From NCBI GenBank assembly GCA_903925015.1, contig CAIYDY010000359.1:1-60971 (forward strand): a stretch of DNA of 60,971 nucleotides. The letters are read 5' to 3'. Below, one piece after another: positions 5,844 to 25,851 of the stretch. The notes beneath the pieces were generated by a model. That model was not told the DNA's origin and did no database searches. It saw nothing but the letters and a program-made list of their open reading frames with translations. Position 1 is the stretch's first letter, and each line of letters opens with the position of its first letter. The position numbers and the translations under genes are program-made. This DNA is from an uncultured Acidobacteriia bacterium (GTDB lineage: Bacteria; Acidobacteriota; Terriglobia; Bryobacterales; Bryobacteraceae).

Positions 5844-6914
5844 TTCGAACAACTCTTTCGAAGTCGGAGTGAGGATCTCGCAGCCGGTTTGGGTCACCAG
5901 CACGGTGTCCTCGATCCGAATGCCGCCCCAACCCTCGATGTAGACGCCGGGTTCGATGGTGATCGCCATCCCGGCTTGGAGTTTGCCCTTGTCCTTGCGC
6001 CCCAGACGCGGCCCTTCGTGGATTTCCAGCCCAAGGCCGTGGCCAGTGGAGTGCACAAAAGCCTTTTCGAGTCCGCGGGCCTGCAATACTTCGCGCGCCG
6101 CCTTGTCCACGGCCACGGTGCGGACTCCCGGTTTCACGGCGTCAATTGCGGCGAGTTGGGCTTCCAGAACGGCAGCATACATTTCGCGGTAACGGTCGGT
6201 CGCGGGCCCCACATGGACCATGCGGGTCATATCACTGGCATATCCATCCCGGAAAACGCCCATGTCAATCAGGAGCATTCCCGTGGCGATGGGCGTGGAT
6301 CCGGGACGGGCCTGCGGCAGTGCTGCTCGTACGCCCGCAGCCACGATGGTGTCGAACGCAAGGCCTTCGGCACCCAGCTTGCGGTTCGCGTAGTCGATTT
6401 CGGCGGCGAGTTCCGACTCGGTCATGCCGATTTGGAACCGGCCGAGCGCCTGGGCCAGCGCGATCGAGTTCGCGTTCACGGATGCACGGATCGCCGCGAT
6501 CTCTCCCGCGTCCTTCACCATGCGGAGGCGTTCCACCAAGCCTGAAACCGGGACCAGTTCCAAGCCAAGGGTCAGGCCCTTCTTCAGCGCGTCGAACTGG
6601 GCAACGTTGATGTGGTCCTGCTCAAAGCCGAACTTGCGGATTCCCGACTTCGTGAAGGCGGCCAGGATGGACTTCGTCAGCGGCCCCTTGGCGATCACAA
6701 CCTTGCAGTCGGTCTGCTGCCTCGATTGGACGGTGTAGCGGGGGTCCGTGAACAGCGTCGCCGTGCCGTCCTCTAGCAGAAAGACGATGCCATTGCTGCC
6801 GGTAAAGCCGGTCAAGTAGCGGACGTTCTCCGGCTTGGTGACCAGCAGTGCGTCGAATTTGTCGAACTGCGCGGCGGCCTTTACCCGCCGCGCAGCTTCC
6901 GGTCCTGTCACCAC
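5838..6914 (-). CDS. M24 family Xaa-Pro peptidase
   Basis: A cytoplasmic metallopeptidase that removes an N-terminal residue preceding proline. The 358 residues comprise a creatinase-like N domain (about 1-130) and a pita-bread M24 domain. All five metal ligands are visible: Asp217, Asp228, His292 (STGHGLGLEIHEGP), Glu321 (TIEPGVY) and Glu335 (IRIEDTV). The usual substrate-side motif ALPH is ALPQ here (Gln201), which may alter specificity. The start is GTG at 6914, directly after the stop of the quinone oxidoreductase gene, so the two form an operon. Confidence 0.9.
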   Translation of the reverse strand: MVTGPEAARRVKAAAQFDKFDALLVTKPENVRYLTGFTGSNGIVFLLEDGTATLFTDPRYTVQSRQQTDCKVVIAKGPLTKSILAAFTKSGIRKFGFEQDHINVAQFDALKKGLTLGLELVPVSGLVERLRMVKDAGEIAAIRASVNANSIALAQALGRFQIGMTESELAAEIDYANRKLGAEGLAFDTIVAAGVRAALPQARPGSTPIATGMLLIDMGVFRDGYASDMTRMVHVGPATDRYREMYAAVLEAQLAAIDAVKPGVRTVAVDKAAREVLQARGLEKAFVHSTGHGLGLEIHEGPRLGRKDKGKLQAGMAITIEPGVYIEGWGGIRIEDTVLVTQTGCEILTPTSKELFEL

Positions 6915-7883
6915 TTATGGCACCAGGAGGAGCTTGCCCGCAGTTCCCCGCCCTTCCAAATCGGCGTGGGCCTGTGGTGCGTCCGCCAGCGCATAGGTCT
7001 TGTGGATGCGGAGTTCCAAGCTGCCATTGGCGATCCAGCCAAGTACGTCGCCCGCACGCCATTCCAACTCCTCGCGGGTCAGGCAATGGTGGGCGAGGCT
7101 GGGCCTGGTCATGAAAAGCGAGCCTTTCTGGTTCAGGATGGACGGGTCGAACGGGGGCACGGCACCGCTCGATTGGCCGAAAAGAACCATCATGCCGCGC
7201 GGGCGGATTAGGTCCAAGCCTTTTAGGAAGGTGCTGGCACCGACAGAGTCGTAGACCACATCCAAGCCCTTTCCTCCCGAGAGCGCCTTGACCTCGGCGA
7301 CAAAATCCTTCTGGGTGTAGATGATCACCTCGTCGGCACCGGCGGATTTGGCGATCGCCGCCTTTTCCTCGTTGCCAACGGTGGTGTAAACCGTTGCACC
7401 GAGCATCTTCGCCATTTGGATGAGCAACCGGCCCGCGCCGCCTGCACCAGCATGGATCAGGCATCGGTCACCCGGCTTCAGGGGGTAAGAGGAATGGGAG
7501 AGATAGTGGGCCGTCATGCCCTGCAGCATGGCGGCGGCACCGGTTTCATAGGAGACGCCATCGGGAAGGTGGACAAGTTGGCTGGTGGGAACGACCGCGT
7601 ACTCGGTGTAGGAGCCGCGGAACATGCCCCACGCCACGCGGTCGCCCACTGCAAAATCGGTGACGCCCGGTCCAACGGCCTCAATGACGCCAGCCCCCTC
7701 GTTGCCCGGGGTGAACGGCAACTCCGCCTTGTAAAGCCCGATGCGGAAATAGACGTCGATGAAATTGACGCCGGCCGCGCCGACTTTGATCAGAGCCTGG
7801 TTGGGGCCGGGAGCGGGGACGGGAGCGTCCACATAGCGCATCTCCTCCGGGCCGCCGGTCTTGGTGATTTGGATTGTTTTCAT
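6915..7883 (-). CDS. NADPH:quinone oxidoreductase (zinc-independent MDR family)
   Basis: A medium-chain dehydrogenase/reductase of the QOR type that reduces quinones or enones with NADPH. From ATG 7883 it is 322 residues with the N-terminal GroES-like domain (VGAAGVNFIDVYFRIGLY) and a Rossmann domain with HAGAGGAGRLLIQMAK. Structural zinc cysteines are absent, as expected for QOR. An upstream extension to 8147 is open but only overlaps the neighbouring gene, so it is not used. The stop codon abuts the start of the M24 peptidase gene. Confidence 0.92.
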   Translation of the reverse strand: MKTIQITKTGGPEEMRYVDAPVPAPGPNQALIKVGAAGVNFIDVYFRIGLYKAELPFTPGNEGAGVIEAVGPGVTDFAVGDRVAWGMFRGSYTEYAVVPTSQLVHLPDGVSYETGAAAMLQGMTAHYLSHSSYPLKPGDRCLIHAGAGGAGRLLIQMAKMLGATVYTTVGNEEKAAIAKSAGADEVIIYTQKDFVAEVKALSGGKGLDVVYDSVGASTFLKGLDLIRPRGMMVLFGQSSGAVPPFDPSILNQKGSLFMTRPSLAHHCLTREELEWRAGDVLGWIANGSLELRIHKTYALADAPQAHADLEGRGTAGKLLLVP

Positions 7884-7897
7884 GGTGTTTGGAATTC

Positions 7898-8449
7898 CTA
7901 AAAGGCTCGGCGGACCGCACGTCGGGTGTGGACCGCGAAAGCATACAGTAGCAAATAAAGGACGGTGAAGGGAAACGCCGCCAAACGCGCCACGACCCGG
8001 ATGGCCCCGGTGCCCTCCATCCCCATGCGGGTCAGGACAAACTCCCGCATGATGGCGAGGTTTTCGCGGTGGATCCAAAAATAGTCGCCGTTCTCGTTGA
8101 CGATGAAGACCTTGGCCGGGACGCGGAAGGCCAGCATCCACTTCCACTTGGTCATCAGGGGCTCGGCGGAGCAGATCATGCCGGTGAAGGCATAGTCGCG
8201 GGTGCGAAGCTCACGAACGAGCTGTTCGCGCTTTTCCTTGGTTCCGTAGTCGGTGACCCGGTAGACCTTGCCGTTGGGGGGCATGCCGACGGGGAGTCCG
8301 CCAAAACAGGTGACCAGATCGATTTCGTAGTTCCCGGCCCATGCGGGAAGAATGATAGGCAACAAGCCTTCCAGCAGCGAGCGGGAGCCGCTTTCGATGA
8401 GGAGGATTCGCTTGCCGGCAGGTTCCCGGTTGCTGATGACGTATTTCAT
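7898..8449 (-). CDS. Hypothetical protein with C-terminal membrane segment
   Basis: A 183-residue protein I do not recognise by name. The N-terminal half reads like an alpha/beta fold (KRILLIESGSRSLLEGLLP, YEIDLVTCFGG), reminiscent of the first Rossmann unit of glycosyltransferase- or heptosyltransferase-like proteins. A hydrophobic stretch near residues 155-172 (AAFPFTVLYLLLYAFAV) followed by arginines suggests a C-terminal membrane anchor. It lies 14 nt upstream of the quinone oxidoreductase and probably shares its promoter. Confidence 0.6.
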   Translation of the reverse strand: MKYVISNREPAGKRILLIESGSRSLLEGLLPIILPAWAGNYEIDLVTCFGGLPVGMPPNGKVYRVTDYGTKEKREQLVRELRTRDYAFTGMICSAEPLMTKWKWMLAFRVPAKVFIVNENGDYFWIHRENLAIMREFVLTRMGMEGTGAIRVVARLAAFPFTVLYLLLYAFAVHTRRAVRRAF

Positions 8450-13514: not shown

Positions 13515-13643
13515 GTTCAATATTGAGGGTACACAAGGGCCGTTCCTGCCGACCGCAGGGCACGCTACGCGGATGCCCCGGACGTGGTTGAACTGGGTGC
13601 CGTGTGGACTGAAGAACCCGGATGGTGAGCGGCGAGTGAAGGA

Positions 13644-13761
13644 GGCGGAAATTTCGGAATTGGGGGTTGTATGGGCGTAAGATATTGATTCCATTGAGAC
13701 GGGTATCGCTTCTGTGCTCTCTGGAAAGGGCGAAACGGAGTCAGACAGACCCAACTTTTGT
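13644..13761. repeat. 118-bp direct repeat, copy 1
   Basis: Starts GGCGGAAATTTCGGAATT and ends CCCAACTTTTGT. It matches copy 2 at 13809-13926 with about 12 mismatches by eye and no gaps. The repeat period is 165 bp. Confidence 0.85.
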
Positions 13762-13808
13762 TGCCCACGGAGATGCGGCTGTCCCACAAAGCGCGAAGGC
13801 CCGTGTGG

Positions 13809-13926
13809 GGCGGAAATTTCGGAATTGGGGGATGTATGGGCGTAATCTATTGATTCCATTGGGACAGGTGTCGCTTCGGCGCGGTCTGGAAAGGGCGAAA
13901 CGGAGTCAAACGGACCCAACTTTTGT
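13809..13926. repeat. 118-bp direct repeat, copy 2
   Basis: Same ends as copy 1, ungapped. Differences cluster in the middle (CTGTGCTC versus CGGCGCGG). The conserved flanks contain the core GGAAAGGGCGAAACGGAGTC. The role is unknown: it could be a duplicated regulatory site or an inactive mobile-element fragment. Confidence 0.85.
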
Positions 13927-14103
13927 ACGAAGAGCAATTGCGATTTCGGCTCTTGGGCAGTCCGGCGGTTGGACTCGAATTGTTGTTGGGGAAGCATGGG
14001 GGTATGTCCGTGGAAAGTATGGCACGGGCGGGGGCGGAGACGGGGTGGATTTCGGCGTAGGTTGTTGATTTATTAGGAAATAAAGATTGTGAACGAAGGC
14101 GTG

Positions 14104-14148
14104 CCACACCTGCCCCACAAAGCGCGAGGGCTCTGGGGGCAGGTGTGG
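14104..14148. repeat. Long hairpin (13-bp arms) with the CCCACAA motif
   Basis: Perfect arms CCACACCTGCCCC (14104-14116) and GGGGCAGGTGTGG (14136-14148) flank a 19-nt loop containing ACAAAGCGCGAGGG. It is 11 nt beyond the stop of the minus-strand FAD oxidoreductase and could act as its terminator or as a REP-like element, although no U-run follows. Confidence 0.7.
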
Positions 14149-14159
14149 ACGGGCTAGGC

Positions 14160-15581
14160 CTAGGACAGCTGGGCGAGGATGATTCTCGCGTGGAGGTCGA
14201 GGGCTGGGTAACCGTGGACCGCATAAAATTCAGAACGCAGGACGCTACCCATCGCGAAGATTCCGGGGGCGGTCCGGAGTTGGCAGTCCTGGGTCCAGAG
14301 CCCTCCCAGCTCGCCGGAAGGAGCGTGGCAAGGGCGCGCGAGACCGGAATCCAGCATCTGGCGAATCACCGGGTTGGTGGTTTTTGAGATGCGGTATTCG
14401 GGCCCGGTCGCGATGACAATCTTGTCATAGGCCGGCAGGCCGGCGCTGGTGGACCCCACGGTCACGCTACCTTCCGCAAGCCGGTCCGCGAGCCAGCGGG
14501 CGGAACCTGCTAGCATCGCGTGGCGTTTCGTGTAGTAGAGGCGCTGAAACTGGCCATTTTGCTCCGTCATGAAGCGTTCCTGTTGGACGGGGCCGAGCCA
14601 TTTCCATATGCGGGTGGCGTGGCTGCCCACAGCCTCTACGACCATGCGCCATGCGGGGCCGCCTTCGGCCGCTTCGGCGATGTCCTGGTTGAGTTGCACC
14701 AAGGGGTCAACCGAGGTGGCGCGTTCCACGAATTCCTGGAAGTTCCAGCCTGGCGATGCGCGCTGGAGCAAGGGCAGCAGTTTGGCCCCCAGCAGTTCGA
14801 GGGTCGGGCTAACACCGGAGCGTTCCAAGCCGGTCAGGATTGCGCCCACTTCCCGAACCAGTTCGGGTGCAACCGGGTCTGGGGTTTGGACCGCGCTTAG
14901 GAGGCCATGCCGGGAGCGGATGTGGATGGGTCCCGCAACACCGTGTTCCTGCAGCAGGTGCCGGGCGACGTCGATGCCACCGGGACCCGTGCCGATGACA
15001 AGGACTTTGTCATTCGGCGCGATGCGGTTGGCGAACGCGGTGTCGCCCGTGTAGAACGAGATGCGGGCCGGGTCAACCTTCGCGAACGCTGCGGGGAGCG
15101 ACGGCGGTTGGTGTCCGGTTGCTAGGATCACGTGGGTAGCGGGCCAGCTGCCGCCATTGGCGTCGCGGACCACATAGCCGGGTACATTGCCGATCGGGTG
15201 GACTGCGACGGCGGATGCCAGGACCCGGTGGACCTTGCAACCGAGCTTACGGAGTTGGGCGATGGCGTTCTCCGCAACGTGACTGGTATACCGGCCAAGG
15301 TCGCTGCGGAGTGGCGGATCGAATTGGCTGGCTCCGATTTGGCTGAGATAGGCTTCAAAGCCGACCTGGCCGGGTACGGAGTGGAGCGAGAGCCGCATGT
15401 TCACGCGGAACGCGGTGCTGGATGTGGAGTGGGGAGTACCACCCCAGGAGGGGTCCCGAGGATCGAGAATGGTGATGCTCCCGATTTTCAGGATCCCGGA
15501 TTGGGCTGCGAGTACGGCCCGTGCGAGAAAGAAAGTGGCGGAGGGTCCGCCGCCGGCGATGACGATGTGAAGTGGTTTCAG
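14160..15581 (-). CDS. FAD/NAD(P)-binding oxidoreductase (COG4529 type), probable CTG start
   Basis: A 473-residue flavoprotein related to the COG4529/HpyO group. The dinucleotide-binding motif IVIAGGGPSATFFLARAV lies at residues 5-22, followed by ITILDPRDPSWGGTPHST. A second nucleotide-binding motif is VLVIGTGPGGIDVARHL in the middle. The first ATG/GTG/TTG is at 15404, which would remove the whole FAD-binding motif. The only sensible start within the open frame is CTG at 15581, preceded by AAGGA nine bases upstream; an in-frame TGA lies just beyond. The reaction is unknown. Confidence 0.78.
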   Translation of the reverse strand: MKPLHIVIAGGGPSATFFLARAVLAAQSGILKIGSITILDPRDPSWGGTPHSTSSTAFRVNMRLSLHSVPGQVGFEAYLSQIGASQFDPPLRSDLGRYTSHVAENAIAQLRKLGCKVHRVLASAVAVHPIGNVPGYVVRDANGGSWPATHVILATGHQPPSLPAAFAKVDPARISFYTGDTAFANRIAPNDKVLVIGTGPGGIDVARHLLQEHGVAGPIHIRSRHGLLSAVQTPDPVAPELVREVGAILTGLERSGVSPTLELLGAKLLPLLQRASPGWNFQEFVERATSVDPLVQLNQDIAEAAEGGPAWRMVVEAVGSHATRIWKWLGPVQQERFMTEQNGQFQRLYYTKRHAMLAGSARWLADRLAEGSVTVGSTSAGLPAYDKIVIATGPEYRISKTTNPVIRQMLDSGLARPCHAPSGELGGLWTQDCQLRTAPGIFAMGSVLRSEFYAVHGYPALDLHARIILAQLS

Positions 15582-15648
15582 ATTGTGAGGTCCTTGGCCT
15601 CACCGGCTGGGCCATTTCCCTTTTCGCGGACAGGGTTATAGTGGCGGG

Positions 15649-16530
15649 ATGGGATTCGCGACAGATCGCCAGTTTCGGACAGCTCCCCCGCCGGAGGGGA
15701 CGCCGCACCACGTCGGGGCCATGGCGGGAGACTTCAGCGGGCCCGACTGCACGGCCACGGTGGTGGTGGCAACCGCCGACGGGCAGTGGGAGTATGGCCG
15801 GGAGGTCGAGATCCACGTCATCCCCAATTCGTGCCAGGAGTTGCCGATCAACGGGGAAACACTGTTGTTCTGGTCCGGCATCGAAATTTCGACCCCGAGC
15901 GAAGAACTAAAAATTTCGATGGGAGTCCCGAAGGGGAAGCACAAACCGGACAAGGATGGCTGGTTTGTGGTGGCTTCATTGGCGATGCGGGAAACACCGG
16001 CTAGACCGTTGGGATGGCGCGTTTGTGCGCCGTTGCGGGGTTACGACGGAAACAAGACCAAGGAGGTGCGCTTGGAGATGATGCGCCAGTCCTGGCAAAG
16101 CGGGAAGCAGCTCCGCGATTTGCCGTGGGACCCGTTCCTGCAAGCGTCTGGAAAGTATGTTGCGCGGCTCAACGATCCAATGCGGCTGCAACATCGGAAC
16201 GGTACCGACCTCGGAAACGGGCTGGTGCGCGGGCGTGCCCCGAAAGGGATCGAGGATACGGTGTGGCATTTCGGCATTTGCAGCCAGCGGTGCTTGGAGT
16301 CGTTCGGGCTGGCTTGGGCTGCGAAACCACCGGATGAGTCGTATGCGGTGCGGCCCCCGGGGCCAAACGGACAGTTGCTCGCGGTGCCGCAGTTCTCCGC
16401 CCCCAACGTTGAACAGGCCTCCGCATGGCACAGCTTGGCGGGGCGGTGCAAGGGCGACGGCATTTCCTTGGCCACCATGTTCTCGGAAACGCGCAAGCAC
16501 TTGGCGGGAGGAAAGGCGGAATGGGAGTAG
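15649..16530 (+). CDS. Uncharacterised protein, first of a paralogous pair
   Basis: A 293-residue protein that I do not recognise, with no signal peptide or membrane segment. It contains a Trp-rich segment DGQWEYGREVEIHV, LLFWSGIEIS, DLPWDPFLQASGKYVARLND, and VWHFGICSQRCLESFGLAWA. Comparable segments occur in the same order in the next gene (WGYGEEIPVTV, VFWAGIEVLV, QLAFDPLLADPDMFMARLGD, RCWYFGLSP), so the two look like diverged tandem duplicates. The next gene starts inside its last codons. It is divergent from the FAD oxidoreductase and upstream of the DGR locus. Confidence 0.6.
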   Translation: MGFATDRQFRTAPPPEGTPHHVGAMAGDFSGPDCTATVVVATADGQWEYGREVEIHVIPNSCQELPINGETLLFWSGIEISTPSEELKISMGVPKGKHKPDKDGWFVVASLAMRETPARPLGWRVCAPLRGYDGNKTKEVRLEMMRQSWQSGKQLRDLPWDPFLQASGKYVARLNDPMRLQHRNGTDLGNGLVRGRAPKGIEDTVWHFGICSQRCLESFGLAWAAKPPDESYAVRPPGPNGQLLAVPQFSAPNVEQASAWHSLAGRCKGDGISLATMFSETRKHLAGGKAEWE

Positions 16531-17762
16531 TCAACGACCTGGATGTCCGGATGCCGGTGGAACATGCGGTCCACACGGTTGGGGCGCTTTCGATGACGAT
16601 GCGGGGGAGCGCGACCCTAATTACCCGACTGGGAGTGGCCCAAACGCAGGGACCGGGCATGGACCGCTGGGGTTACGGGGAGGAAATTCCGGTGACGGTC
16701 CGGTTCAACCACCTGGAACGTGCCGCCGTGGAGAACTCCGTGGACGAGGTTTTCTGGGCCGGGATCGAAGTACTGGTAACGAAGAGGGCTCTGGAGACCA
16801 GGGGATTGCTTGGCCTGCCGGAACTGCACATTACGGCGGCGCTGCGACCGCTTTCGTTGATGTGGTTCCTGCATGCCCCGCTGAAACGTGGCTGCGCGTC
16901 CGAAAGGGACCGCCACAACGCGGTGGCACAGCTGGCAAGGGGCGAAAAGACGTTTGGACAGTTGGCGTTCGATCCGCTTTTGGCGGATCCAGACATGTTC
17001 ATGGCGAGGCTGGGAGACCCACTTCGGCCGAACTGGGAGGACCCGGACACAGTGGACACCGGGGATGGGTGGTGGCAGAACCGCAATGTGTTTCGGAATG
17101 CATCGTTGATCAAGCCGGAATGCACAGCGCGGGAGGGGGAATTTTTGCCTCCGACGCGGTGCTGGTATTTCGGGCTGTCTCCGGTGGTGCCGTCGGAAGT
17201 GGTGGTGGCGACGGCGGCGGGTGAAAAATGCCGGGCTCTGGTGGACGGGAGCGATTCGCGGCCCGTGCGGCGGGGACGCGGCTTGGTCGCAGCGGGAGGC
17301 AATGGCGGAGCAGTGGGAGGCAGCGGCGGGGCGGTGGACTGGGCGGACAGGAAGCAGATGGGCGAACAGGCAAACATTGTCCGACCCGACAATACAATGG
17401 CGGAACGGATTGTGGAGGCAGCAATCCGCCAGGCCATGGCGGGACGGTGCGAGGGTGGCGCTTCGATGGATTCGTGGATCGAGCGGCATTTCCGGGATAT
17501 GTTCAGCAATATGGCCGGACGGATGGACCGGGCGGTGGAGGCGGTGCCTGCGGTGGCCGGGGATGAGGAGCGGATCCCGATGGATGTGGTGGAACTGCGG
17601 TTGGCGGCGTTCAGCATGGCGCACCGGATTGCCTGCCCGCGGTGTTTGATGCTGCCTGTGGTGGGTTCGATGACGAGGGAGCGGGTGTGGGAGGTCTTGG
17701 CGTTCCCGGGAGATTATTTGAATGGATGCCGGATGGCTTTGGTGGAGGCTTTGGAGGGCTGA
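16521..17762 (+). CDS. Uncharacterised protein, second of a paralogous pair
   Basis: A 413-residue protein from ATG 16521, which has a strong ribosome site (GGGAGG upstream) and overlaps the previous stop by 10 nt. The first ~240 residues parallel the preceding protein. A glycine-rich linker (GGNGGAVGGSGGAVDWA, about 262-278) then leads to a helical C-terminal region with CEGGASMDSWIERHFRDMF and a Cys pair ACPRC. No family is recognised. It ends 132 nt from the convergent stop of DGR target 1, so it may be part of the same island, but no direct functional link is visible. Confidence 0.6.
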   Translation: MGVVNDLDVRMPVEHAVHTVGALSMTMRGSATLITRLGVAQTQGPGMDRWGYGEEIPVTVRFNHLERAAVENSVDEVFWAGIEVLVTKRALETRGLLGLPELHITAALRPLSLMWFLHAPLKRGCASERDRHNAVAQLARGEKTFGQLAFDPLLADPDMFMARLGDPLRPNWEDPDTVDTGDGWWQNRNVFRNASLIKPECTAREGEFLPPTRCWYFGLSPVVPSEVVVATAAGEKCRALVDGSDSRPVRRGRGLVAAGGNGGAVGGSGGAVDWADRKQMGEQANIVRPDNTMAERIVEAAIRQAMAGRCEGGASMDSWIERHFRDMFSNMAGRMDRAVEAVPAVAGDEERIPMDVVELRLAAFSMAHRIACPRCLMLPVVGSMTRERVWEVLAFPGDYLNGCRMALVEALEG

Positions 17763-17800
17763 TCGGGCGAGGAACTGGGTGGGAACGGTGGTCGGGGAGA

Positions 17801-17866
17801 CGCCCCCAAGGGGGCGTGGCGGAGGTCGGCGACCTCCGCGCAGGGTGCCACCCGGCCCCACAACGG
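17801..17866. repeat. DGR-associated hairpin element, copy A (3' of VR1)
   Basis: Three consecutive hairpins: CGCCCCC/GGGGGCG (17801-17816), GGAGGTC-GGC-GACCTCC (17821-17837), and GCAGGG-TGCCA-CCCGGC (17840-17856), ending CCCACAACGG. It lies about 30 nt beyond the stop codon of target 1, separated by a purine-rich tract (AAAGGGAAAAGGAAAAAG). The same layout recurs at copies B and C. Hairpins just 3' of the VR are known to promote mutagenic homing in the Bordetella phage BPP-1 DGR. Confidence 0.8.
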
Positions 17867-17894
17867 CAAAAAGCAAAGGGAAAAGGAAAAAGAG

Positions 17895-20570
17895 CTAAGG
17901 GAACACTGCCCGGAGACAACGAAACCCGAGGATGTAGTTCCGAACATCCGGTACGACGAAGTTGCGAACGGCGGCCCGGAGGTACCACGAATCGTTGAGG
18001 AAGGAACCGCCCCGCACCACCTGCTCGTGACCCCACTCCCAGACGTTCCCTGCCATGTCCGCGATTTGGGTGCGCGGGACGTTGCCTTTGGGGAAGAGAC
18101 CCACGGGCGTTGGCCTTTTGATCTTCCAATCGTAGTTGGCCCGATCGTAATCGGGTTCCTCGTCTCCCCAGGAATATTCTCCAGCCGCGGCGTTCTGCCA
18201 TTCGTAATCGCCGGGGAGACGGATCGCTTTGCCGGTTTCGGCGCTCCACCACTTGCAATAGGCCACCGCATCATGGAACGAAACGTAGACGACGGGGCGG
18301 TGGGGGAATGATTCCTGTTCCTTCCACGTCTTGGGCACTGACGCCGACTTGTTCCGGGCCAGATAGTGGCCGTATTCGTGGACGGTGACCGGGTTGCGGC
18401 CGAGGCCTTGTCCTCCGGCGATGGGCTCCCAGTAATCGTGGTCGGAGGGCAGGCGCAACCGCGACGTGTCGCCCACCAACAGTTCCCACGCTTCGGCGGC
18501 ATCGGCACGGGCGAACGGGTCCAAGTTCTCGCCGTCCGCCTTGCCTTGGAACAGACCGAACATGGCTCGGACGAATTCCATGTAAAGCGGCGATTCGATG
18601 TCGGTCTCCCGCTCCCGGCGGTGGCGGACCATGCCACGGATCATGCTGACGGTGCGGGCCTTGTTGGCAAGGGACTCGTTCTTGGCTGCGCCAAGGAGCT
18701 TTGCGTAGATGCGCTGGATCGTGGACTGCTTCTTTGCCCCCAAGGCGAAGAGATTGAGGAACTCCCGCCAGTGCTGGCCATACCTGCGGGGATCGGTCAA
18801 AATGCAATCCTGCTCGTCCTGGGTGTTGTTCCACAGATCCTGGGACGCCAAGTACTCCTGCAGGGTTAGATGGCGGAATTGGACATCATCATCGGCCAAG
18901 CCGACGATGATCCCGGAATCCGGCTCCTCCTGATTGAGGAAGTCATTGGCGGCTTGGCGATTCCCTTTCAAGGACGGGAGCAGTATTTGCAGGGCCTGGC
19001 CGCGCTCTGCCCGCGTCAACCGCCCTGTGGGCTCGGTCTGCATGCCGTAGGCCAGCACTTGCAGAAGAGCCAAGCGCTGCTCCGGATTCAGAGTTCTTTC
19101 CTGATGGAGCTTGGCGAACACCATCCAGCCAACAATGGACTCATAGACCTTGACCCGGTCTTCCGGCAGCCTGCCTTCGTTCCAGTGGATAACGGCGAGG
19201 GCGGTCAGCATCATGGGGCTGGCGGCCATTTCGCGGATCGCTGGATTGCCTTCCACCTGCTTCGACAAGTCTTCGCGCTTGGCTTCCCCCTCGGACGGAT
19301 TGTCCCGATAGGCGCAGTTGCACCAGTTCCTGAAGAAAACTGTCCGGTCGTCCTTGGAAAGGGGCCGAACGCTGTCGGTGTGGAAGTTTGGCACGGTGCG
19401 AGTGCCGCCGTAGACGCCGGGCCTGGAGGTCAACACGAAGCGGCAATCGGGATATTCATCCTGCGCCGATTGGAGTAGTTCGCGCAAACGGGCTCGGTGC
19501 CTTTCATCGAGAGCCTCGTCGAACCCGTCCAGCAGGACGACGGCCCCCGGTCGCGCCAGTTGCCGCTCCATAAAGTCCTGGCGCCGTTCCCAGTCTTTGC
19601 CCGCTGCGTGGATGGCGAGCCAACGGGGGTCCGAGGGTTGGCAGACCTTGGGGTGTCTGCCGAGCAGGCCGTTGATTGTGGCGTCCAGCGCGACCACCTT
19701 GATGGGCACGGGAAACTTGTCGGGTTCGGCTGCGAGGGTCCATGCCAAATGTTTCAGGAAGGTGGACTTTCCGGACCCGGCCATGCCTTCGACCACCAAA
19801 CACTGGTCCCGGCGGAATACTTGTTCGAGGGACTTGCCATTCGGGTTGCTGAGTGGCACGTAAAAATCCTGGATGGGGAAGGTGGTGTGGGCGTTGGTGC
19901 CCTTGAAACCCTTGAGTTCGACCGTCGAGTTCTCGGATCGAACGCGTTGGCGGTGGAGGTCGCGCATCCGGCTTTCGTGGTCGATGTCGGCAATGGGAAA
20001 TCCCGACGGGCAACCGGCCAGGGCAACGCCATGCGGAGCAAGAAAGCGGGCGATCTTGCCGGGGCCGATGAGAATGGTGCGGTGGGCCACTTTACCGCCC
20101 AGTTGGATCAGGCCAACACAGTATCCCAATCCTACTTGCTCCCAAGCGATACCACCGCTCATGCCCGGGGCAGCGCCGGAATGGGCGAACGCGGACTTGG
20201 TCCAGCCGTTTTCGGACGTGGCGGGGCTGTTGACTTTATCGGGACGCTCGTCGAACTCGCTTTCAGTCGCGTCGACCTTTGCGAACCCTTTCAATTGGAT
20301 GGAAGCACCGTCGCTGACAGCGTGCCTCCAGGCGGGAGGGTCGCCGAGAACGTCGTCCACTTTTAGCAGCGCGAGGTCGTCAGCGGTTTCAGGTGATCTG
20401 GCCACCACGGTGGCGGTAAATTTTTGGGCACCGCGCCTGGCTTCCACCGGACTTTCGAAATTCAGTACGTGGGTACAGGTGAGGATGTGCAAAGGGGAGA
20501 CTAGGATGCCTGTGCCGAGGTAGATCCCGTTGGTTGCGTGGAGGCGGAAGAGGAAGTCGGGGGCGGTCAT
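17895..20570 (-). CDS. DGR target protein 1: trypsin-like protease - NACHT - FGE/C-type-lectin-like variable protein
   Basis: An 891-residue cytoplasmic protein from ATG 20570. Domains: trypsin-like protease (1-200) with triad candidates His34 (LTCTHV), Asp65 (ADDLALL) and Ser138 (GMSGG); NACHT NTPase (about 255-420) with Walker A EGMAGSGKSTFLKHL (Lys268) and Walker B VVLLDGFDEA (344-353); a helical middle region; and an FGE/SUMF-like domain (about 705-891) with PGDYEWQNAAAGEY, GNVWEW and VVRGGSF. Residues ~850-887 are the variable repeat. Cysteines that make true FGE catalytic are missing from the variable loop, so binding rather than catalysis is expected. Inferred role: an NLR-like conflict sensor with a protease effector. 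Confidence 0.9.
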   Translation of the reverse strand: MTAPDFLFRLHATNGIYLGTGILVSPLHILTCTHVLNFESPVEARRGAQKFTATVVARSPETADDLALLKVDDVLGDPPAWRHAVSDGASIQLKGFAKVDATESEFDERPDKVNSPATSENGWTKSAFAHSGAAPGMSGGIAWEQVGLGYCVGLIQLGGKVAHRTILIGPGKIARFLAPHGVALAGCPSGFPIADIDHESRMRDLHRQRVRSENSTVELKGFKGTNAHTTFPIQDFYVPLSNPNGKSLEQVFRRDQCLVVEGMAGSGKSTFLKHLAWTLAAEPDKFPVPIKVVALDATINGLLGRHPKVCQPSDPRWLAIHAAGKDWERRQDFMERQLARPGAVVLLDGFDEALDERHRARLRELLQSAQDEYPDCRFVLTSRPGVYGGTRTVPNFHTDSVRPLSKDDRTVFFRNWCNCAYRDNPSEGEAKREDLSKQVEGNPAIREMAASPMMLTALAVIHWNEGRLPEDRVKVYESIVGWMVFAKLHQERTLNPEQRLALLQVLAYGMQTEPTGRLTRAERGQALQILLPSLKGNRQAANDFLNQEEPDSGIIVGLADDDVQFRHLTLQEYLASQDLWNNTQDEQDCILTDPRRYGQHWREFLNLFALGAKKQSTIQRIYAKLLGAAKNESLANKARTVSMIRGMVRHRRERETDIESPLYMEFVRAMFGLFQGKADGENLDPFARADAAEAWELLVGDTSRLRLPSDHDYWEPIAGGQGLGRNPVTVHEYGHYLARNKSASVPKTWKEQESFPHRPVVYVSFHDAVAYCKWWSAETGKAIRLPGDYEWQNAAAGEYSWGDEEPDYDRANYDWKIKRPTPVGLFPKGNVPRTQIADMAGNVWEWGHEQVVRGGSFLNDSWYLRAAVRNFVVPDVRNYILGFRCLRAVFP
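17909..18023 (-). repeat. Variable repeat VR1
   Basis: A 115-bp segment at the 3' end of target 1 that aligns without gaps to the template repeat at 21013-21127 (offset 3104). There are 16 mismatches, all at positions where the template coding strand has A. It encodes the stretch from QVVRGGSF to GFRCLR, with the template's Asn-rich codons turned into mixed residues (GGSFLNDSWYLR, VRNFVVPDVRNYI). Confidence 0.97.
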
Positions 20571-21012
20571 GGGGTTCCGTTGAGCGCCTTTCAGGCAGGC
20601 CGAAGATGGGACGGGCGTTGGCCGCCGGTTGCGAGAGTCTTCGGTATGGGAAGGATTTCCGGCGATTGGAGCGGGCGGTTCACGGATATAGTGTAGCGTT
20701 TGTTCGGGGGATCTTGGATTGCGGGCTCGGGATGGGTGCGCGCGGCTTTCGCCGCGTGGCCAGCTCGGCGAGCTGGCCGCAGGATGCCATCCTGCCCCAC
20801 AACGGACAACGGGCAAATGGCAAGGGAAAAGGCCCGCCGAACGCTTCGCCTCTGGAGGCTACCACTCTGGAAGCTACCACGGCGGCGGGCTTGGAGTACA
20901 ACTTGTTCGACGCCCGCAGGGCGGACGTCGGGAGTACCGTCAGGAAGTGGAAGTGCACTCCCGGCGCGGCCTGGACCGGCACCGGTTCCGGCTGTGAATC
21001 TATTTTCCACAT
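20571..21012. other. Non-coding spacer between TR and DGR target 1
   Basis: This 442-bp stretch has no supported gene. From the TR side it contains a small stem-loop (arms CGACG 20908-20912 and CGTCG 20926-20930, inner CCC/GGG), a 15-bp tandem duplication (20851-20865 and 20866-20880) enclosed by the inverted repeat GCCCGCCG (20832-20839) and CGGCGGGC (20883-20890), then hairpin element copy C (20741-20805). The rest must contain the promoter or 5' leader of target 1. The structured part may be a 3' extension of the template RNA, by analogy with the spacer RNA of BPP-1. Confidence 0.6.
20741..20805. repeat. DGR-associated hairpin element, copy C (3' of TR)
   Basis: Three hairpins in the same order as copies A and B: CGCGGC/GCCGCG (20741-20756; the minus-strand loop is GAAA), GGCCAGCTC-GGC-GAGCTGGCC (20758-20778), and GCAGGA-TGCCA-TCCTGC (20779-20795), ending CCCACAACGG. 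Stem sequences differ from the other copies but pairing is kept, while the GGC and TGCCA loops and the tail are identical. Confidence 0.8.
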
Positions 21013-21127
21013 CCCGGAGACAACGAAACCCGAGGTTGTTGTTTCGTTCATCCGGTTCGTTGTTGTTGCGAACGGCGGCCCGGAGGTTCCTCGTATTGTT
21101 GTTGAAGGAACCGCCCCGCACCACCTG
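21013..21127 (-). repeat. DGR template repeat (TR)
   Basis: The donor sequence for both variable repeats. On the minus strand it reads, in the VR frame, [18 protein letters not shown] then [19 protein letters not shown], dense in AAC codons as in known DGR templates. It has 28 adenines in its core; 24 of these are changed in at least one VR, and no other base is changed. It lies directly 3' of the reverse transcriptase and overlaps the end of its reading frame (21048-21127), all in the same orientation as avd and both targets. Confidence 0.97.
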
Positions 21128-22199
21128 TGGACGGCGCTCCCGAGCGTGGCAGAAACGCGAACCGGTCCAACAGGTTGCGGCGGAGCACGGTGGTGTCGCC
21201 AAAACCCGCGTGGCCGATCCAAGACCGCACGCTCTGCTGGACAGCATACCACGTAGTCCGGCCAGCGTGGAAGTCTTCCTGCAATTGGCGCATCCGGCGG
21301 GAGAAGCGGATTACGTTCTCCCGGACGAGGCGGGTTTTCTGCGGGAAAAGGCGCCAGCCAAGAAAAGTGACGCCCTCTGCGCATTGGTAGACGCGCGATT
21401 TGCGGTCGTGCAGCCGGAGGCGATCCAGTTCCAAGTGGTCGGATATGCAAAGGCGCATGGACTCGAGGTCCTGTTTCGAGTCCGAGAAGAGTACGAAGTC
21501 ATCTACGTAACGGGCGTAGGCTCCGGGCCGGAGTTGGCGCGTGATGAACTGATCCAGGCTGTCGAGGTAGACGTTGGCGAAAAACTGCGAGGTTTGGTTG
21601 CCGAGAGGCAGCCCCCGGCGACGGTCCAAGGGGGTAAACAGGTCGTCGCCCGGGAAGAGAAAGAGGACTTCCTCCTGTGGATTGGAGCCGTCGATGATGG
21701 TTTCGGCCAGTTCCAAGGTCCGGCTGCACTTGATGGCTGCGGCCAGTTTGTCTTTGAGGATTTGGTGGTCGATGGAGGCGAAGTACTTGCGGACGTCGCA
21801 CTTGAGCACATAGCGGAATTTGGCGCAAGCGGATTCGGCGACTTTCAGGGCGGCGTGCGTCCCCATGCCTTGGCGGCAGGCGACCGACTAGGGGGAGAAA
21901 CGCTTCTCGAAGAACGGATTGAGCACGCGGGTGAGAGCGTGGTGGACGATGCGGTCGCGGAAGGGGGCGGCGGAGATCCGGCGCGGTTTCGGCTCGCGTA
22001 ACTCAAAGGTGCGGTAGCCACCCGGCTGGTAGGTTCCGTCCAGAAGTTCGCGCTGGAGTTGGACGAGGTGGAGTTCGAGATCGAGGAGAAACGCCGCCAC
22101 ATCGGGGCGGCTGCGTTTGCCTGCCGCCGCGGATTCGGCGGCGGCCAGCAAGTTTTCAAAGCTGGTGAGCTGGGGCCAAAGGTTGCCGAGGCGTTTCAT
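21048..22199 (-). pseudogene. DGR reverse transcriptase, split by one in-frame TAG
   Basis: The enzyme that would copy TR into A-mutagenised cDNA. The gene starts at ATG 22199, overlapping the avd stop by 4 nt, and stays in one frame to TGA 21048, interrupted only by TAG at 21888-21890. Before the TAG is the fingers region (RTFELREPKPRRISAAPFRD, FFEKRFSP). After it come [15 protein letters not shown], motif [11 protein letters not shown], motif B LGNQTSQ (the DGR-type variant of QGxxxSP), and motif C YVDD. Continuity across the stop argues for a recent nonsense mutation, a sequencing error, or readthrough. A restart at ATG 21866 would lack the fingers. The last ~26 codons run through TR. Confidence 0.9.
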
Positions 22200-22570
22200 G
22201 ATTGTGCGGGTGCTCCGACGATGGCCGACTTGCGCCACCCGCCGACCATGCGGCCGATCTCCTCCAGGTTTTGGGCGCAAAAACCGTAGGAGTCAACGGC
22301 GAGGAGATCGAGGTCCTTGGCCAGACGGAGGAGAAAACGGAGGGAGTTCAACTTGTGGCTGGCGGATTCGAGTAGGGGTTCCTTGCGGCGGGAATAGGCG
22401 GCTTCGGTGAGCAATGCCATCAGGTCCAGCGCGTGCGCAGTGAGGCGGTCGCCTACGGTGAAGCGGTGGCTGCGGGGAAAGTTCTCGACTTTGCGGACCA
22501 GCCAGAGGGTGAAGGTGTAGGTTTTCTGGACTACGGGCGGTGCCTCGTCACGGATTTTGTATGGGGGCAT
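22196..22570 (-). CDS. avd: DGR accessory variability determinant (Avd)
   Basis: A 124-residue, mostly helical, basic protein expected to form the pentameric four-helix-bundle barrel that binds the DGR reverse transcriptase and template RNA. Family-like segments are YTFTLWLVRKVENFPRSHRF, LTEAAYSRRKEPLLESASHK, LNSLRFLLRLAKDLDLLA and a C-terminal EEIGRMVGGWRKS. The ATG at 22570 fixes a typical Avd length. Its TGA overlaps the reverse transcriptase ATG (ATGA), showing translational coupling. It lies 3' of target protein 2 and hairpin element B. Confidence 0.9.
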   Translation of the reverse strand: MPPYKIRDEAPPVVQKTYTFTLWLVRKVENFPRSHRFTVGDRLTAHALDLMALLTEAAYSRRKEPLLESASHKLNSLRFLLRLAKDLDLLAVDSYGFCAQNLEEIGRMVGGWRKSAIVGAPAQS

Positions 22571-22603
22571 GGTTTGAGTATCGGGGTATGGGGGGGGGAT
22601 GTC

Positions 22604-22694
22604 CGCGCCCTTCAGGCGCGTGCGGATGTCGGCGACATCTAGGTGCGTGCGGATGTCGGCGACATCCGCGCAGGGTGCCACCCTGCCCCACAAC
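22604..22694. repeat. DGR-associated hairpin element, copy B (3' of VR2)
   Basis: Contains an arm pair CGCGCC/GGCGCG near 22604-22620, then two tandem copies of a 27-bp unit (22619-22645 and 22646-22667 onward), each with GATGTC-GGC-GACATC. The second has a 9-bp stem (22649-22669). It is followed by GCAGGG-TGCCA-CCCTGC and the tail CCCACAACGG. A purine tract AAAGGGAAAAGGAAAAAG separates it from the stop codon of target 2, as at copy A. Confidence 0.8.
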
Positions 22695-22724
22695 GGGCAA
22701 AGGTAAAGGGAAAAGGAAAAAGAA

Positions 22725-25700
22725 TCAAGGGAGCACTTCCCGGAGACAACGAAACCCGAGGAAGTTGCTTCGTACAACCGGTCCGACGTCGAGGCGAACG
22801 GCGGCCCGGAGGCTCCACGCACTGTCGAAGAAGGAACCGCCCCGCACCACCTTGGGCGTTCCGCCCTCGTCATATGAGCTATCTGTCCACTCCCAGACGT
22901 TGCCGATCAGGTCGAAGATTCCGTCCTTCCGCCCTGCGGGGAAGAGACCGACGGGTGTGGGAGCCCCGATTCCAGCATAGCTGCCATTTGCGCGGTTCGG
23001 GTCCTCTTTGGGTGTTGGAGTGTTTCCCCAAGGGTAGCGGAGGCTTTCGGGGCCACGGGCCGCGTATTCCCATTCCGCCTCGCTGGGGAGACGGACGATT
23101 GCGGACGGGCGGCTGGCCCAGCGGCAATAGGCTGCAGCTTCGTCCCAAGTCACGTAGGTGACTGGACGCGCGGGGTGCTTCCGCTGTTCTTCGAAGTTCA
23201 TGTCCGGGTGGGTCTCCCCGCCTTTCTCCGAATCCACGTAGATGGCGTATTCGTAGACGGTGACGGGGTAGCGTCCCAACTCGAACGTTGGCACCCGAAC
23301 GGGATTGGGGCGATTGTTGGCCTCGCGGTCTTCGTCGTCAAATGCTTCGGGGTCGTAGAGGGGTTTGGTGTCGTCCTTGGACTGGGCTCCCATCCAGAAT
23401 TCGTCCCAGCCAGCGACGCGGGCCCAGTAGCGGTGCCCTTCATGGGGCAGGGGGAGTCGCGGGTCGCGGGCATGGCCGCTGGCGGCGAGGCTGTGCGCCT
23501 CGGCTGCGGCGGCGCGGTCCTTGAGGGGGATTGCGGCGGCTTGGCGGATGGAGTCTGGATCGTCACGGAAAATGACCATGACGCGGGCGAGGAGGGCATC
23601 CCACTGGGACTTTAACGCCGGATTCATTTTGTAGGCATTTTTGTCGGACTTCGGTGCGAGGTCGTTCAGCATGCCGCCCACCGTGCCGGCGAGGTACGCC
23701 GCAGCCTCAAGCGATTTGGCTGGACTGCCCAGGAGTGCTTCCAACAGATTGTCCAACCGCTCATCGCTGCCTTCCATTACTCCGGCAAGCAGGCGCAGGA
23801 CTTCCGGCGATTCACGCTTTTCCAGGATTTGCAGGGCCGTTGGCCGGGGATCGACGAGGTCATTGATGCGGCGGGCGGCGAGGAATTCCTGGAAACTGCG
23901 GTGCCGGAAGGTTACGGACTTGCCCCGGGTGGTAATGAGGCGTGTCTTTTCCTCGGCACGTTCCAGAAACGCGAGTGCGTCGTCAAGTGTGCCGCCGCGC
24001 ATGAATTTCTCCACTTCCGCAGCAGCGTCCGTGGTGCCCAGACGAAAGCGGCGGTCCTCGGCGCGCAGGGTCATGGCAAGGGCCAGGATGCTGAGGTACT
24101 TGAGGAAGTCCTTGGCGTAGTAGTCCGGGTCCGGACGGCTGCGGGCAAGCTGGGTGACGATGAGTTCGTAGAGGTCGGCCCGTTGTTCCGGGAGTTTGTA
24201 GTCCGGTCGGCTGCGTGTGGCGGTGGCGAGCAGGGTGAGGATGAGCGGGTTGCGGGCGAGGGAGCGGATGCCCGGACGGAGCAGGTTTTCGCGCAGGGCT
24301 GCGGCATGGGTTTCGGCGTTGGTTGCGTCGTGGTTGCGGACCATTCTGGTCCAGAGCGTGACGAAGGCGTCGATCTCGGCGTTGTCCATTTCAAGGATGC
24401 GGAAACGCCCTGCGCGTTCGGGCAGAACGGCTCCGGCATGTTCAGCTTCGGGGCGCAGGGTGGCCACAATGCCGCATGGGTAGGTGGTGGAGATCTGCGT
24501 GAAAAAGTTGGCGAGGAGGGAGCGCCAGCGGGGCGTGGCTTCATCCAACCCATCGAGCAAGACGAGGTTTTCGCGATCGGACAAGGCCCGGTGGAAGTAG
24601 GCGGCGTCCAGGTTCCATTTGCGTTTGACGGACTCGGCGGCGAAGTACTGCCAAAGCCAGGCGAGGTTGGCCGAGTTGGGTGGGGCGTGCGCGGGGTAGA
24701 GCTTGGCAAGGTATTCCTCGAAGTCCCTTACGGGAAGCCAGAGGGGCAGACCTCGAAAGTGGACGTCCAGCGTTTCCGAACTGGCTTGGCCGGGGAGCCA
24801 GTTTCGGCGGAGCATGGCAAAAGCGACGCGCTTGAGCAAGGTGGACTTGCCGGTGCCTGCGTCGCCCTCGATGACGAGGATTCGGCGTTGGTTGAGGATA
24901 TCTACGAGGTATGCGGAATGGTGCGCGGCGCGGAAGGCGTCTTTGTCCGAGTCGGCCTTGTCCGAGCCGGGCTGTTCAGAGCCGGAGACGGATGTACGGG
25001 CGGGAACCCAGAGTTCTTCAATACTGACGTCGTCCGGGAGGGAGCCTTGGCCCACCTTTTCGAGGTTTAGCTGGACCGAGCAGGTTTGGGTACGGACATA
25101 TTCGATATAGGCGGCGGGGTCGGGATGGCAACCGGGGAGGGTGGGCGGGGGATCGAGTGGGCTCTCTGCGAGGAAGGCCTGGATCACCGGGATGGCGATG
25201 AGACGGCTGTTGACGGTGTCGCGGGTCTTGACAATCAAGCCGACGCATGAGGAGTAGGTTGGGACATCGTTGTGTATGAATTGGCCGATGCCGCCGCTTA
25301 TGCCATGGGGAACATCGCTCTCGACGAGAATGCGGTAGCGGTCGGAATTGGCGACGTGAAAGTGGTTTTTGTAGTCGTGGTCATTGGGAAAACCCATCAG
25401 GACTAGTTGGTCGTTCTTTTGGAGGCGCGGGCACTCCCAGCAGGGGGGATGGACGTGGTTGAAGGGGATTGCGAGCTCAAGGAGTGCGAGGTCGTCGTCG
25501 GGTTCCGATTCGTGGAGGATGGTGGCGACGATCGGATCGGGATGGCCTTGGAAATAGACGAGAACGGTATCGAAGGGGGCTTGACTGGGCGGGTGGAGGA
25601 CATGGTGGCAGGTGAGGATGAGGTCGGCGCGGATGAGGACGCCGGAACCCAGGAAGGTCTCGGTGGTGGAGGTATCGCGGCGGCCTTTGATGCGGACGAC

Positions 25701-25745
25701 GTAGGAGGGGACTAGCTGGGGATCGGGCTTGGTTTCCAGTGCCAT
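22725..25745 (-). CDS. DGR target protein 2: trypsin-like protease - NACHT - FGE/C-type-lectin-like variable protein
   Basis: A 1006-residue protein with the same architecture as target 1 but diverged sequence. Trypsin-like domain (1-200): His48 (LTCHHV), Asp85 (DDDLALLEL), Ser150 (HGISGG). A charged Ser/Asp-rich linker (about 251-270) leads to NACHT (about 285-450) with Walker [16 protein letters not shown] (Lys300) and Walker [11 protein letters not shown] (394-403). Then a helical region with [15 protein letters not shown], typical of the NACHT winged-helix end. The FGE-like domain (768-1006) has [20 protein letters not shown] and VVRGGSF. Residues ~965-1003 are VR2. It is the first gene of the avd-RT-TR run and the likely recipient of the main promoter at 25746-25851. 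Confidence 0.92.
22739..22852 (-). repeat. Variable repeat VR2
   Basis: A 114-bp segment aligning without gaps to TR (offset 1726). All 18 mismatches are at template adenines. It encodes [12 protein letters not shown] and [13 protein letters not shown] in place of the template's [12 protein letters not shown] and [13 protein letters not shown]. The pattern of changes differs from VR1, so the two repeats were diversified independently. Confidence 0.97.
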
Positions 25746-25851
25746 GGCAATGATTCAGGATATATGGGGCATTGCACCGTTCGGGATCTGAACTGGACCG
25801 GCTGCGGCGCGGTGGAGAGCGGTGGGAAACTCGTAGAGGAGCAACGGATCC

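Follow-up and report, generated by a model that had tools for sequence, protein, structure and literature searches.

The diversity-generating retroelement (DGR) of the Bordetella phage BPP-1 combines an accessory protein, a reverse transcriptase (RT), a template repeat (TR) and a variable repeat (VR) with adenine-specific mutagenesis of a C-type-lectin (CLec) type target, and a hairpin lies just after its VR. The clade 5D DGRs of Thiohalocapsa PB-PSB1 and other multicellular bacteria commonly serve two STAND-CLec targets, some of which carry N-terminal peptidase or TIR effectors, and the same work describes genomes with more than one DGR, loci that have degenerated and whose machinery is pseudogenised, targets at remote sites and activity in trans (Dore et al., 2024, PMC10907252). 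DGR-linked ternary conflict systems contain FGS domains, and partner domains of the cyanobacterial FGS domain are always N-terminal to it (Kaur et al., 2020, PMC7159879). The DiGReF survey of 2012 reports elements whose RT carries a nonsense codon, a frameshift or an insertion beside intact TR and VR, describes a TR overlapping an RT end and gives the motif of the DGR-clade RT as (I/V/L)GxxxSQ (PMC3521204). A further DGR paper was also compared (Roux et al., 2021, PMC8144416). There is precedent in print for a broken RT with intact repeats, for a TR/RT overlap and for STAND-CLec targets with peptidase effectors. Among the matches listed in one literature collection, no paper combined DGR, NACHT and Acidobacteriota.

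The locus described here lies in a window of 60,971 nucleotides (contig C359; the window is the whole stretch of DNA that was analysed) from an uncultured acidobacterium, whose draft genome (G000) comprises 6.33 Mb in 459 contigs at 97.35% completeness and 2.2% contamination. Judged by its sequence, the window element is a DGR with an Avd, a DGR-type RT, a TR and two targets, laid out as follows:

17895-20570, minus strand: target 1, 891 aa from the chosen ATG at 20570; Trypsin_2 - NACHT - FGE-sulfatase/C-type lectin with VR1
17909-18023, minus strand: variable repeat VR1, 3'-terminal in target 1; all 16 differences from TR1 at template adenines
21013-21127, minus strand: template repeat TR1, 115 bp, 29 adenines, single copy in the genome
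21048-22199, minus strand: DGR reverse transcriptase (RT1), ATG at 22199, stop at 21048-21050, one in-frame TAG
21888-21890, minus strand: the in-frame amber TAG, codon 104 counting from the ATG and residue 105 in the search query, 5' of the catalytic YVDD codons
22196-22570, minus strand: avd accessory gene, 124 aa; PF22296 bAvd E 7.6e-18, PHROG 3206 'Avd protein of DGR' E 1.2e-22
22725-25745, minus strand: target 2, 1006 aa; Trypsin_2 - NACHT - FGE-sulfatase/C-type lectin with VR2
22739-22852, minus strand: variable repeat VR2, 3'-terminal in target 2; all 18 differences from TR1 at template adenines
17825-17866 and 22655-22696, 3' of both targets: GC-rich dispersed repeat, four genomic copies at <=3 mismatches

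The cassette runs in the order avd-RT-TR1 and is flanked by the two targets, all on one strand; the avd stop and the RT1 ATG overlap as ATGA, and about 80 bp at the 3' end of the RT frame, the RT stop codon among them, also belong to TR1. RT1 matches RVT_1 (Pfam) and PHROG 1423, contains YVDD and, at query positions 200-206, LGNQTSQ, which fits the DGR-clade motif. The sequence-only reading had placed avd, a DGR-type RT and the TR on one strand between the targets; this layout stands, but its RT is not an open gene as assembled, the in-frame amber having been overlooked.

Like BPP-1, the element joins an accessory protein, an RT, a TR and VRs with A-specific changes in CLec-type targets, whereas it differs in its cellular host, in a TR that lies 3' of the RT (for the BPP-1 order, see PMC3521204) and in having no significant hairpin after the VRs. 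Two NACHT/STAND targets, a DGR-varied CLec tip and a peptidase effector liken it, on layout, to the clade 5D loci, from which it departs in its acidobacterial host (the string 'acidobacteri' was not found in the main text of PMC10907252) and in a trypsin-like protease fused in the same chain. With the inactivated DiGReF elements it shares a broken RT, intact repeats and a TR overlapping the RT 3' end, but it shares its genome with a further DGR whose RT is open, and the entire cassette is absent from a close relative. As in the systems of Kaur et al. (2020), the FGS/FGE domain is C-terminal to its partner domains and associated with a DGR, whereas neither vWA nor MoxR is among the Pfam hits of targets 1 and 2.

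On the minus (coding) strand TR1 aligns without gaps to VR1 over 115 bp and to VR2 over 114 bp, VR2, aligned at offset -1, lacking one base at the 5' end. VR1 differs from TR1 at 16 of 115 positions, all among the 29 A sites (hypergeometric P 4.5e-12), and VR2 at 18 of 114, again all at A (P 8.6e-14), which amounts to 34/34 differences at template adenines and 0/171 at non-A sites (86 + 85). At least one VR is altered at 24 of the 28 core adenines of TR1, and both are altered at 10. The coordinates, the ungapped alignment, the counts of 16 and 18 and the figure of 24/28 given in the sequence-only reading were all reproduced on re-alignment and recount, and no mismatch outside adenine appeared within the ends it had drawn; BLAST lengthens the pairs by about 5 bases past these ends, adding one non-A mismatch per pair. 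The variable adenines sit at codon position 1 or 2 in 22 of 24 cases, nine codons of TR1 are AAC and no A-to-N change in it creates a stop codon, while the 16 A-containing codons of its core allow about 10^14.8 possible protein versions per VR. Both VR reading frames are open and without non-A drift. Directly 3' of VR1 and VR2 no hairpin signal was detected (folding against shuffles, z 0.89 and 0.40), and the GC-rich stretch about 40 bp further 3' was rejected as a DGR part, being the dispersed genomic repeat listed above; by eye, a stretch resembling it also lies 3' of TR1.

The VRs also keep in step with their own template across lineages. TR1 and the TR of a same-genus genome (G018) differ at 8 non-A core sites, where VR1 and VR2 each follow TR1 at 8/8, the G018 VR follows its own TR at 8/8 and every VR agrees with the other TR at 0/8; the first six of the 115 positions were excluded from the tracking counts because the G018 VR is dissimilar there. 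Against the TR of a further locus (L023), again at 8 non-A core sites, VR1 and VR2 each side with TR1 at 8/8, while the three L023 VRs agree with their own TR at 8/8, 8/8 and 6/8; the third matches TR1 at one of these sites and carries 4 non-A differences, so that not every VR of the group has kept in step. Core differences fall at A in 19/19 cases in G018, in 17/17, 19/19 and 18/22 in L023 and in 17/17 in a second G018 VR on a separate contig. On the G018 contigs C184 and C70, two sequences related to TR1 were rejected as VRs of the G018 TR (32 and 31 core differences, of which 4 and 3 at A). In L023, both targets flanking avd-RT-TR are trypsin-NACHT-FGE proteins, as in the window. The A-only pattern together with this tracking (8/8 against 0/8) upholds the earlier proposal of a DGR with mutagenic homing.

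Both targets show, by Pfam, an N-terminal effector, a NACHT domain and a C-terminal sensor in that order. Motifs that we take to be functional are, in target 1, trypsin-like H34 and S138, a Walker A at 262 and LLDGFDE at 346 and, in target 2, H48, S150, a Walker A at 294 and LLDGLDE at 396. The FGE-sulfatase family PF03781 is matched at E 7.3e-44 and 2.2e-22, with the VR inside the C-type-lectin domain. A model covering the C-terminal 230 residues of target 2, built from an alignment of 37 out of 39 rows, has a mean pLDDT of 85.1; it resembles formylglycine-generating enzymes and matches Treponema denticola variable protein 1 (2y3c) at E 1.1e-9 and TM 0.64. The full-length model (mean pLDDT 79.1, with parts of the trypsin region and the VR below 50) is matched best by 7spq, an FGE-like protein, and by NLRP3 and NLRC4, the latter two at E 4.5e-10 and 7.5e-10; the TM-scores are low, at 0.20-0.30 of the query, which is to be expected where a match covers part of the chain. 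Domain order and models point to NLR-like (STAND) receptors with a variable C-type-lectin tip and a putative immune role.

We put at roughly 0.93 the probability that a chromosomal acidobacterial DGR diversifies the lectin tips of two NLR-like receptors, the RT1 amber being a recent loss or a variant. The sequence itself shows the A-only pattern, the arrangement of the domains and, lineage by lineage, VRs that change together with their own TR. By analogy with characterised DGRs, TR1 RNA would be reverse-transcribed by the DGR RT with Avd, other bases would be inserted opposite template adenines during cDNA synthesis, and the cDNA would replace VR1 and VR2, so that homing would alter as many as 16 codons of the FGE-type C-type-lectin tip in both receptors. 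These would be built as protease effector, NACHT switch and sensor; going by known families, the variable residues may form a binding face, and the receptors may sense invaders and answer with a protease response.

The amber codon bears on whether the cassette still works by itself. A stop at this position is absent from all other RT matches compared, and the position is variable among relatives (D commonest; also H, N, Y, F, R and others). Two codons further, at RT position 107, 70 of 74 distinct relatives' segments have Y or F, while RT1 has V, a second oddity next to the amber that is counted against the best explanation. Only 1/74 conserved RT columns is altered in RT1, and its dN/dS against G018 and L023 is 0.10-0.21 on either side of the amber, although at a dS of 0.9-1.7 old history dominates this ratio and a recent loss would be invisible in it. 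The amber is judged recent given this single altered column, the low dN/dS on both sides and VR1 and VR2 without non-A drift. TAG terminates 8/17 long frames examined in the window, Pfam-supported genes included, and is hence an ordinary stop there. Most likely, RT1 lost its function recently, or the amber is a variant of the strain or of the consensus. With the RT1 frame broken as assembled, past activity is clear and present autonomous activity doubtful: beside an amber-bearing RT1, the repeats record recent homing. Since inactivated elements are still classed as DGRs in the DiGReF survey (PMC3521204), the amber lowers the autonomy of the element, not its kinship.

A scan of bacterial genomes returned 79 related loci, mostly in Acidobacteriota and Planctomycetota; a viral origin was set aside, the related loci among viral contigs numbering only two, 48% and 30% identical. 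Together with the window and contig C249 of the same genome, the 79 loci give 81 RT matches, of which 55 are intact, 10 broken (7 by frameshift or indel, 3 with stops), 15 partial and one contains Ns. Among the broken ones, two have stops at codons 29-30, where the start may be misplaced, and L099 is a distant RT; the damaged RTs of L068, L083 and L092 were tallied as partial. The rate of 10/65, for matches with full coverage and no N runs, stands without a matched control gene set, and RT breakage as a speciality of DGR RTs is unsupported. TR/VR pairs were found at 44/55 loci with an intact RT, 6/10 with a broken RT and 4/16 others, numbers too small for a claim.

The RT gene of the closest relative, G018 (81% identical in its first part), is interrupted by a group II intron soon after the codons for YVDD; the two ends of the intron fall on separate contigs, as matches to RF01999 and RF00029 at the contig ends indicate (L131:1-78; L132:96-171). 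A search for group II introns in incomplete RTs at 10 loci was positive only for this case (L068). Several other lesions were observed along the way: the RT frames of L083 and L092 break near residues 225-249, where neither a contig end nor an Rfam intron is present, the L083 break resembling an internal deletion; frameshifts near motif 4 in L073, L086 and L089 form an apparent cluster; and the G018 record set holds further damaged DGR RTs (L091, L089), one lacking about 30 residues including YVDD and one with a frameshift before motif 4.

That RT1 was truly and recently inactivated in this lineage, leaving VR1 and VR2 as frozen copies of past homing, is plausible at a little below even odds. 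The TAG precedes YVDD, RT damage recurs among relatives (the 10/65 above, the window counted), the RT of the closest relative is split by an intron, and the DiGReF survey offers published precedent (PMC3521204); however, RT1 shows no further decay, and the VR frames have stayed open and free of non-A drift. Possible, though rather doubtful, is a TAG that represents a strain-level variant or a consensus error of the draft assembly, with RT1 open in most cells. A genome in 459 contigs with 2.2% estimated contamination would accommodate this, as would the finding that a gene otherwise under constraint carries just one lesion, two codons from an unusual residue, whereas the length of the contig (61 kb) and the nature of the lesion, a clean substitution, speak against it.

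The second DGR of the genome and its remote target are the following:

contig C249: second DGR (DGR2), with an open RT2, an Avd, TR2 and VR3
contig C213 (L155), 6398-8230: remote DGR2 target, a caspase (PF00656) - FGE protein

VR3 differs from TR2 at 14/14 adenine positions and lies in an FGE target with a kinase hit marginally under the Pfam cut-off; the fourth VR, on C213, differs from TR2 at 19/19 adenines, so that all four VRs of the genome amount to 67/67 differences at template A. RT matches in the genome are confined to contigs C359, C249 and C264; C213 carries none and therefore looks like a remote target of DGR2. The placement of C359, C249 and C213 in one organism rests on binning. 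The original DGR reading of the window holds, but it had missed this second DGR with its open RT and two adenine-only targets.

An open RT2 raises the question of help in trans, in which RT2 and the Avd of DGR2 would act on TR1 and the window cassette would be non-autonomous yet alive. TR2 already serves a remote target on C213, and Dore et al. (2024, PMC10907252) report loci in Thiohalocapsa for which activity in trans is the best explanation. RT1 and RT2 are, however, only 60% identical, BLAST similarity between TR1 and TR2 barely reaches past the repeat, and the Thiohalocapsa VRs matched the TR of the intact DGR (PMC10907252), whereas VR1 and VR2 match TR1, not TR2. Action in trans on TR1 is thus unlikely, and it is just as improbable that the two DGRs share their machinery, one enzyme diversifying four receptors with trypsin, caspase and kinase-like fronts from two templates. 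Readthrough of the amber, yielding a little full-length RT1, would suit the similar purifying selection before and after it, yet TAG is an ordinary stop in the window (8/17 long frames) and none of the compared RT matches has a stop at that position, which leaves this very improbable. That VR1 and VR2 are ordinary diverging paralogues without retrohoming, as the homologous FGE domains encoded at both target ends might suggest, is scarcely tenable against the A-only bias (P 4.5e-12 and 8.6e-14) and VRs that follow their own TR across lineages.

Support for the preferred reading of a receptor-diversifying DGR also comes from a close relative of G000, genome G017 (93-99% identity in the stretches compared). 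The DGR2 locus differs between the two at 53 of 4,737 aligned columns: 17 differences lie in VR3, all at template A, TR2 is identical (115/115) and 36 differences, one gap included, fall outside VR3 and TR2 (Fisher P 1.7e-15). Within G017 itself, 11 positions, all A, separate the VR from its own TR. Polymorphism at adenine sites in VRs but not in the TR, which the sequence-only reading had suggested looking for, is thus borne out at DGR2. No counterpart of the caspase-FGE target on C213 was found in G017, the best match being 74% over 619 bases on the DGR2 contig.

The window cassette itself is held by no close genome among those searched, and the sole match of TR1 in G017 is the DGR2 template. 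The missing portion is:

13559-25816, no strand assigned: 12.26-kb segment with the whole cassette and both targets, absent from G017

On G017 contig C870 the match to window position 13558 directly abuts the match to 25817, so the segment is absent there. Its left junction lies 44 bp before the likely start of an oxidoreductase (13514, where the Pfam domain begins) and its right junction 72 bp before the start of target 2; both are probably intergenic. A comparison of 200 bp from each end revealed no exact 10-bp repeat, and gain in G000 and loss in G017 are neither of them favoured. Besides the DGR, the segment holds a FAD/NAD(P)-binding protein (PF13454; 14160-15404, minus strand), not an obvious DGR part, and overlapping long frames at 15649-17762 (plus strand), for which no Pfam match was obtained in four frames tested. 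Elsewhere in the window, 28790-28963 matches about 30 short places in G017 and probably belongs to a dispersed repeat family.

The domains attached to such variable tips were surveyed among 53 VR-bearing frames, all selected by RGGS, which biases the sample to FGE-type tips. Forty were scanned (E <=0.001; 4 cut frames kept, near-duplicates left in) and 13, short or cut by contig ends, were dropped; FGE was found in 40, NACHT in 14, kinase in 7, trypsin in 6, caspase in 6, TIR in 3 and SIR2 in 1. In this FGE-biased sample of 40, the front end of DGR targets varies from protein to protein. With the locus described here, an acidobacterium would join the bacteria in which NLR-like receptors armed with a protease have their sensor tip rewritten by a DGR, and the pair G000/G017, with its cassette presence and absence and its A-only VR changes, may provide a natural setting in which to follow receptor diversification, gain and loss.
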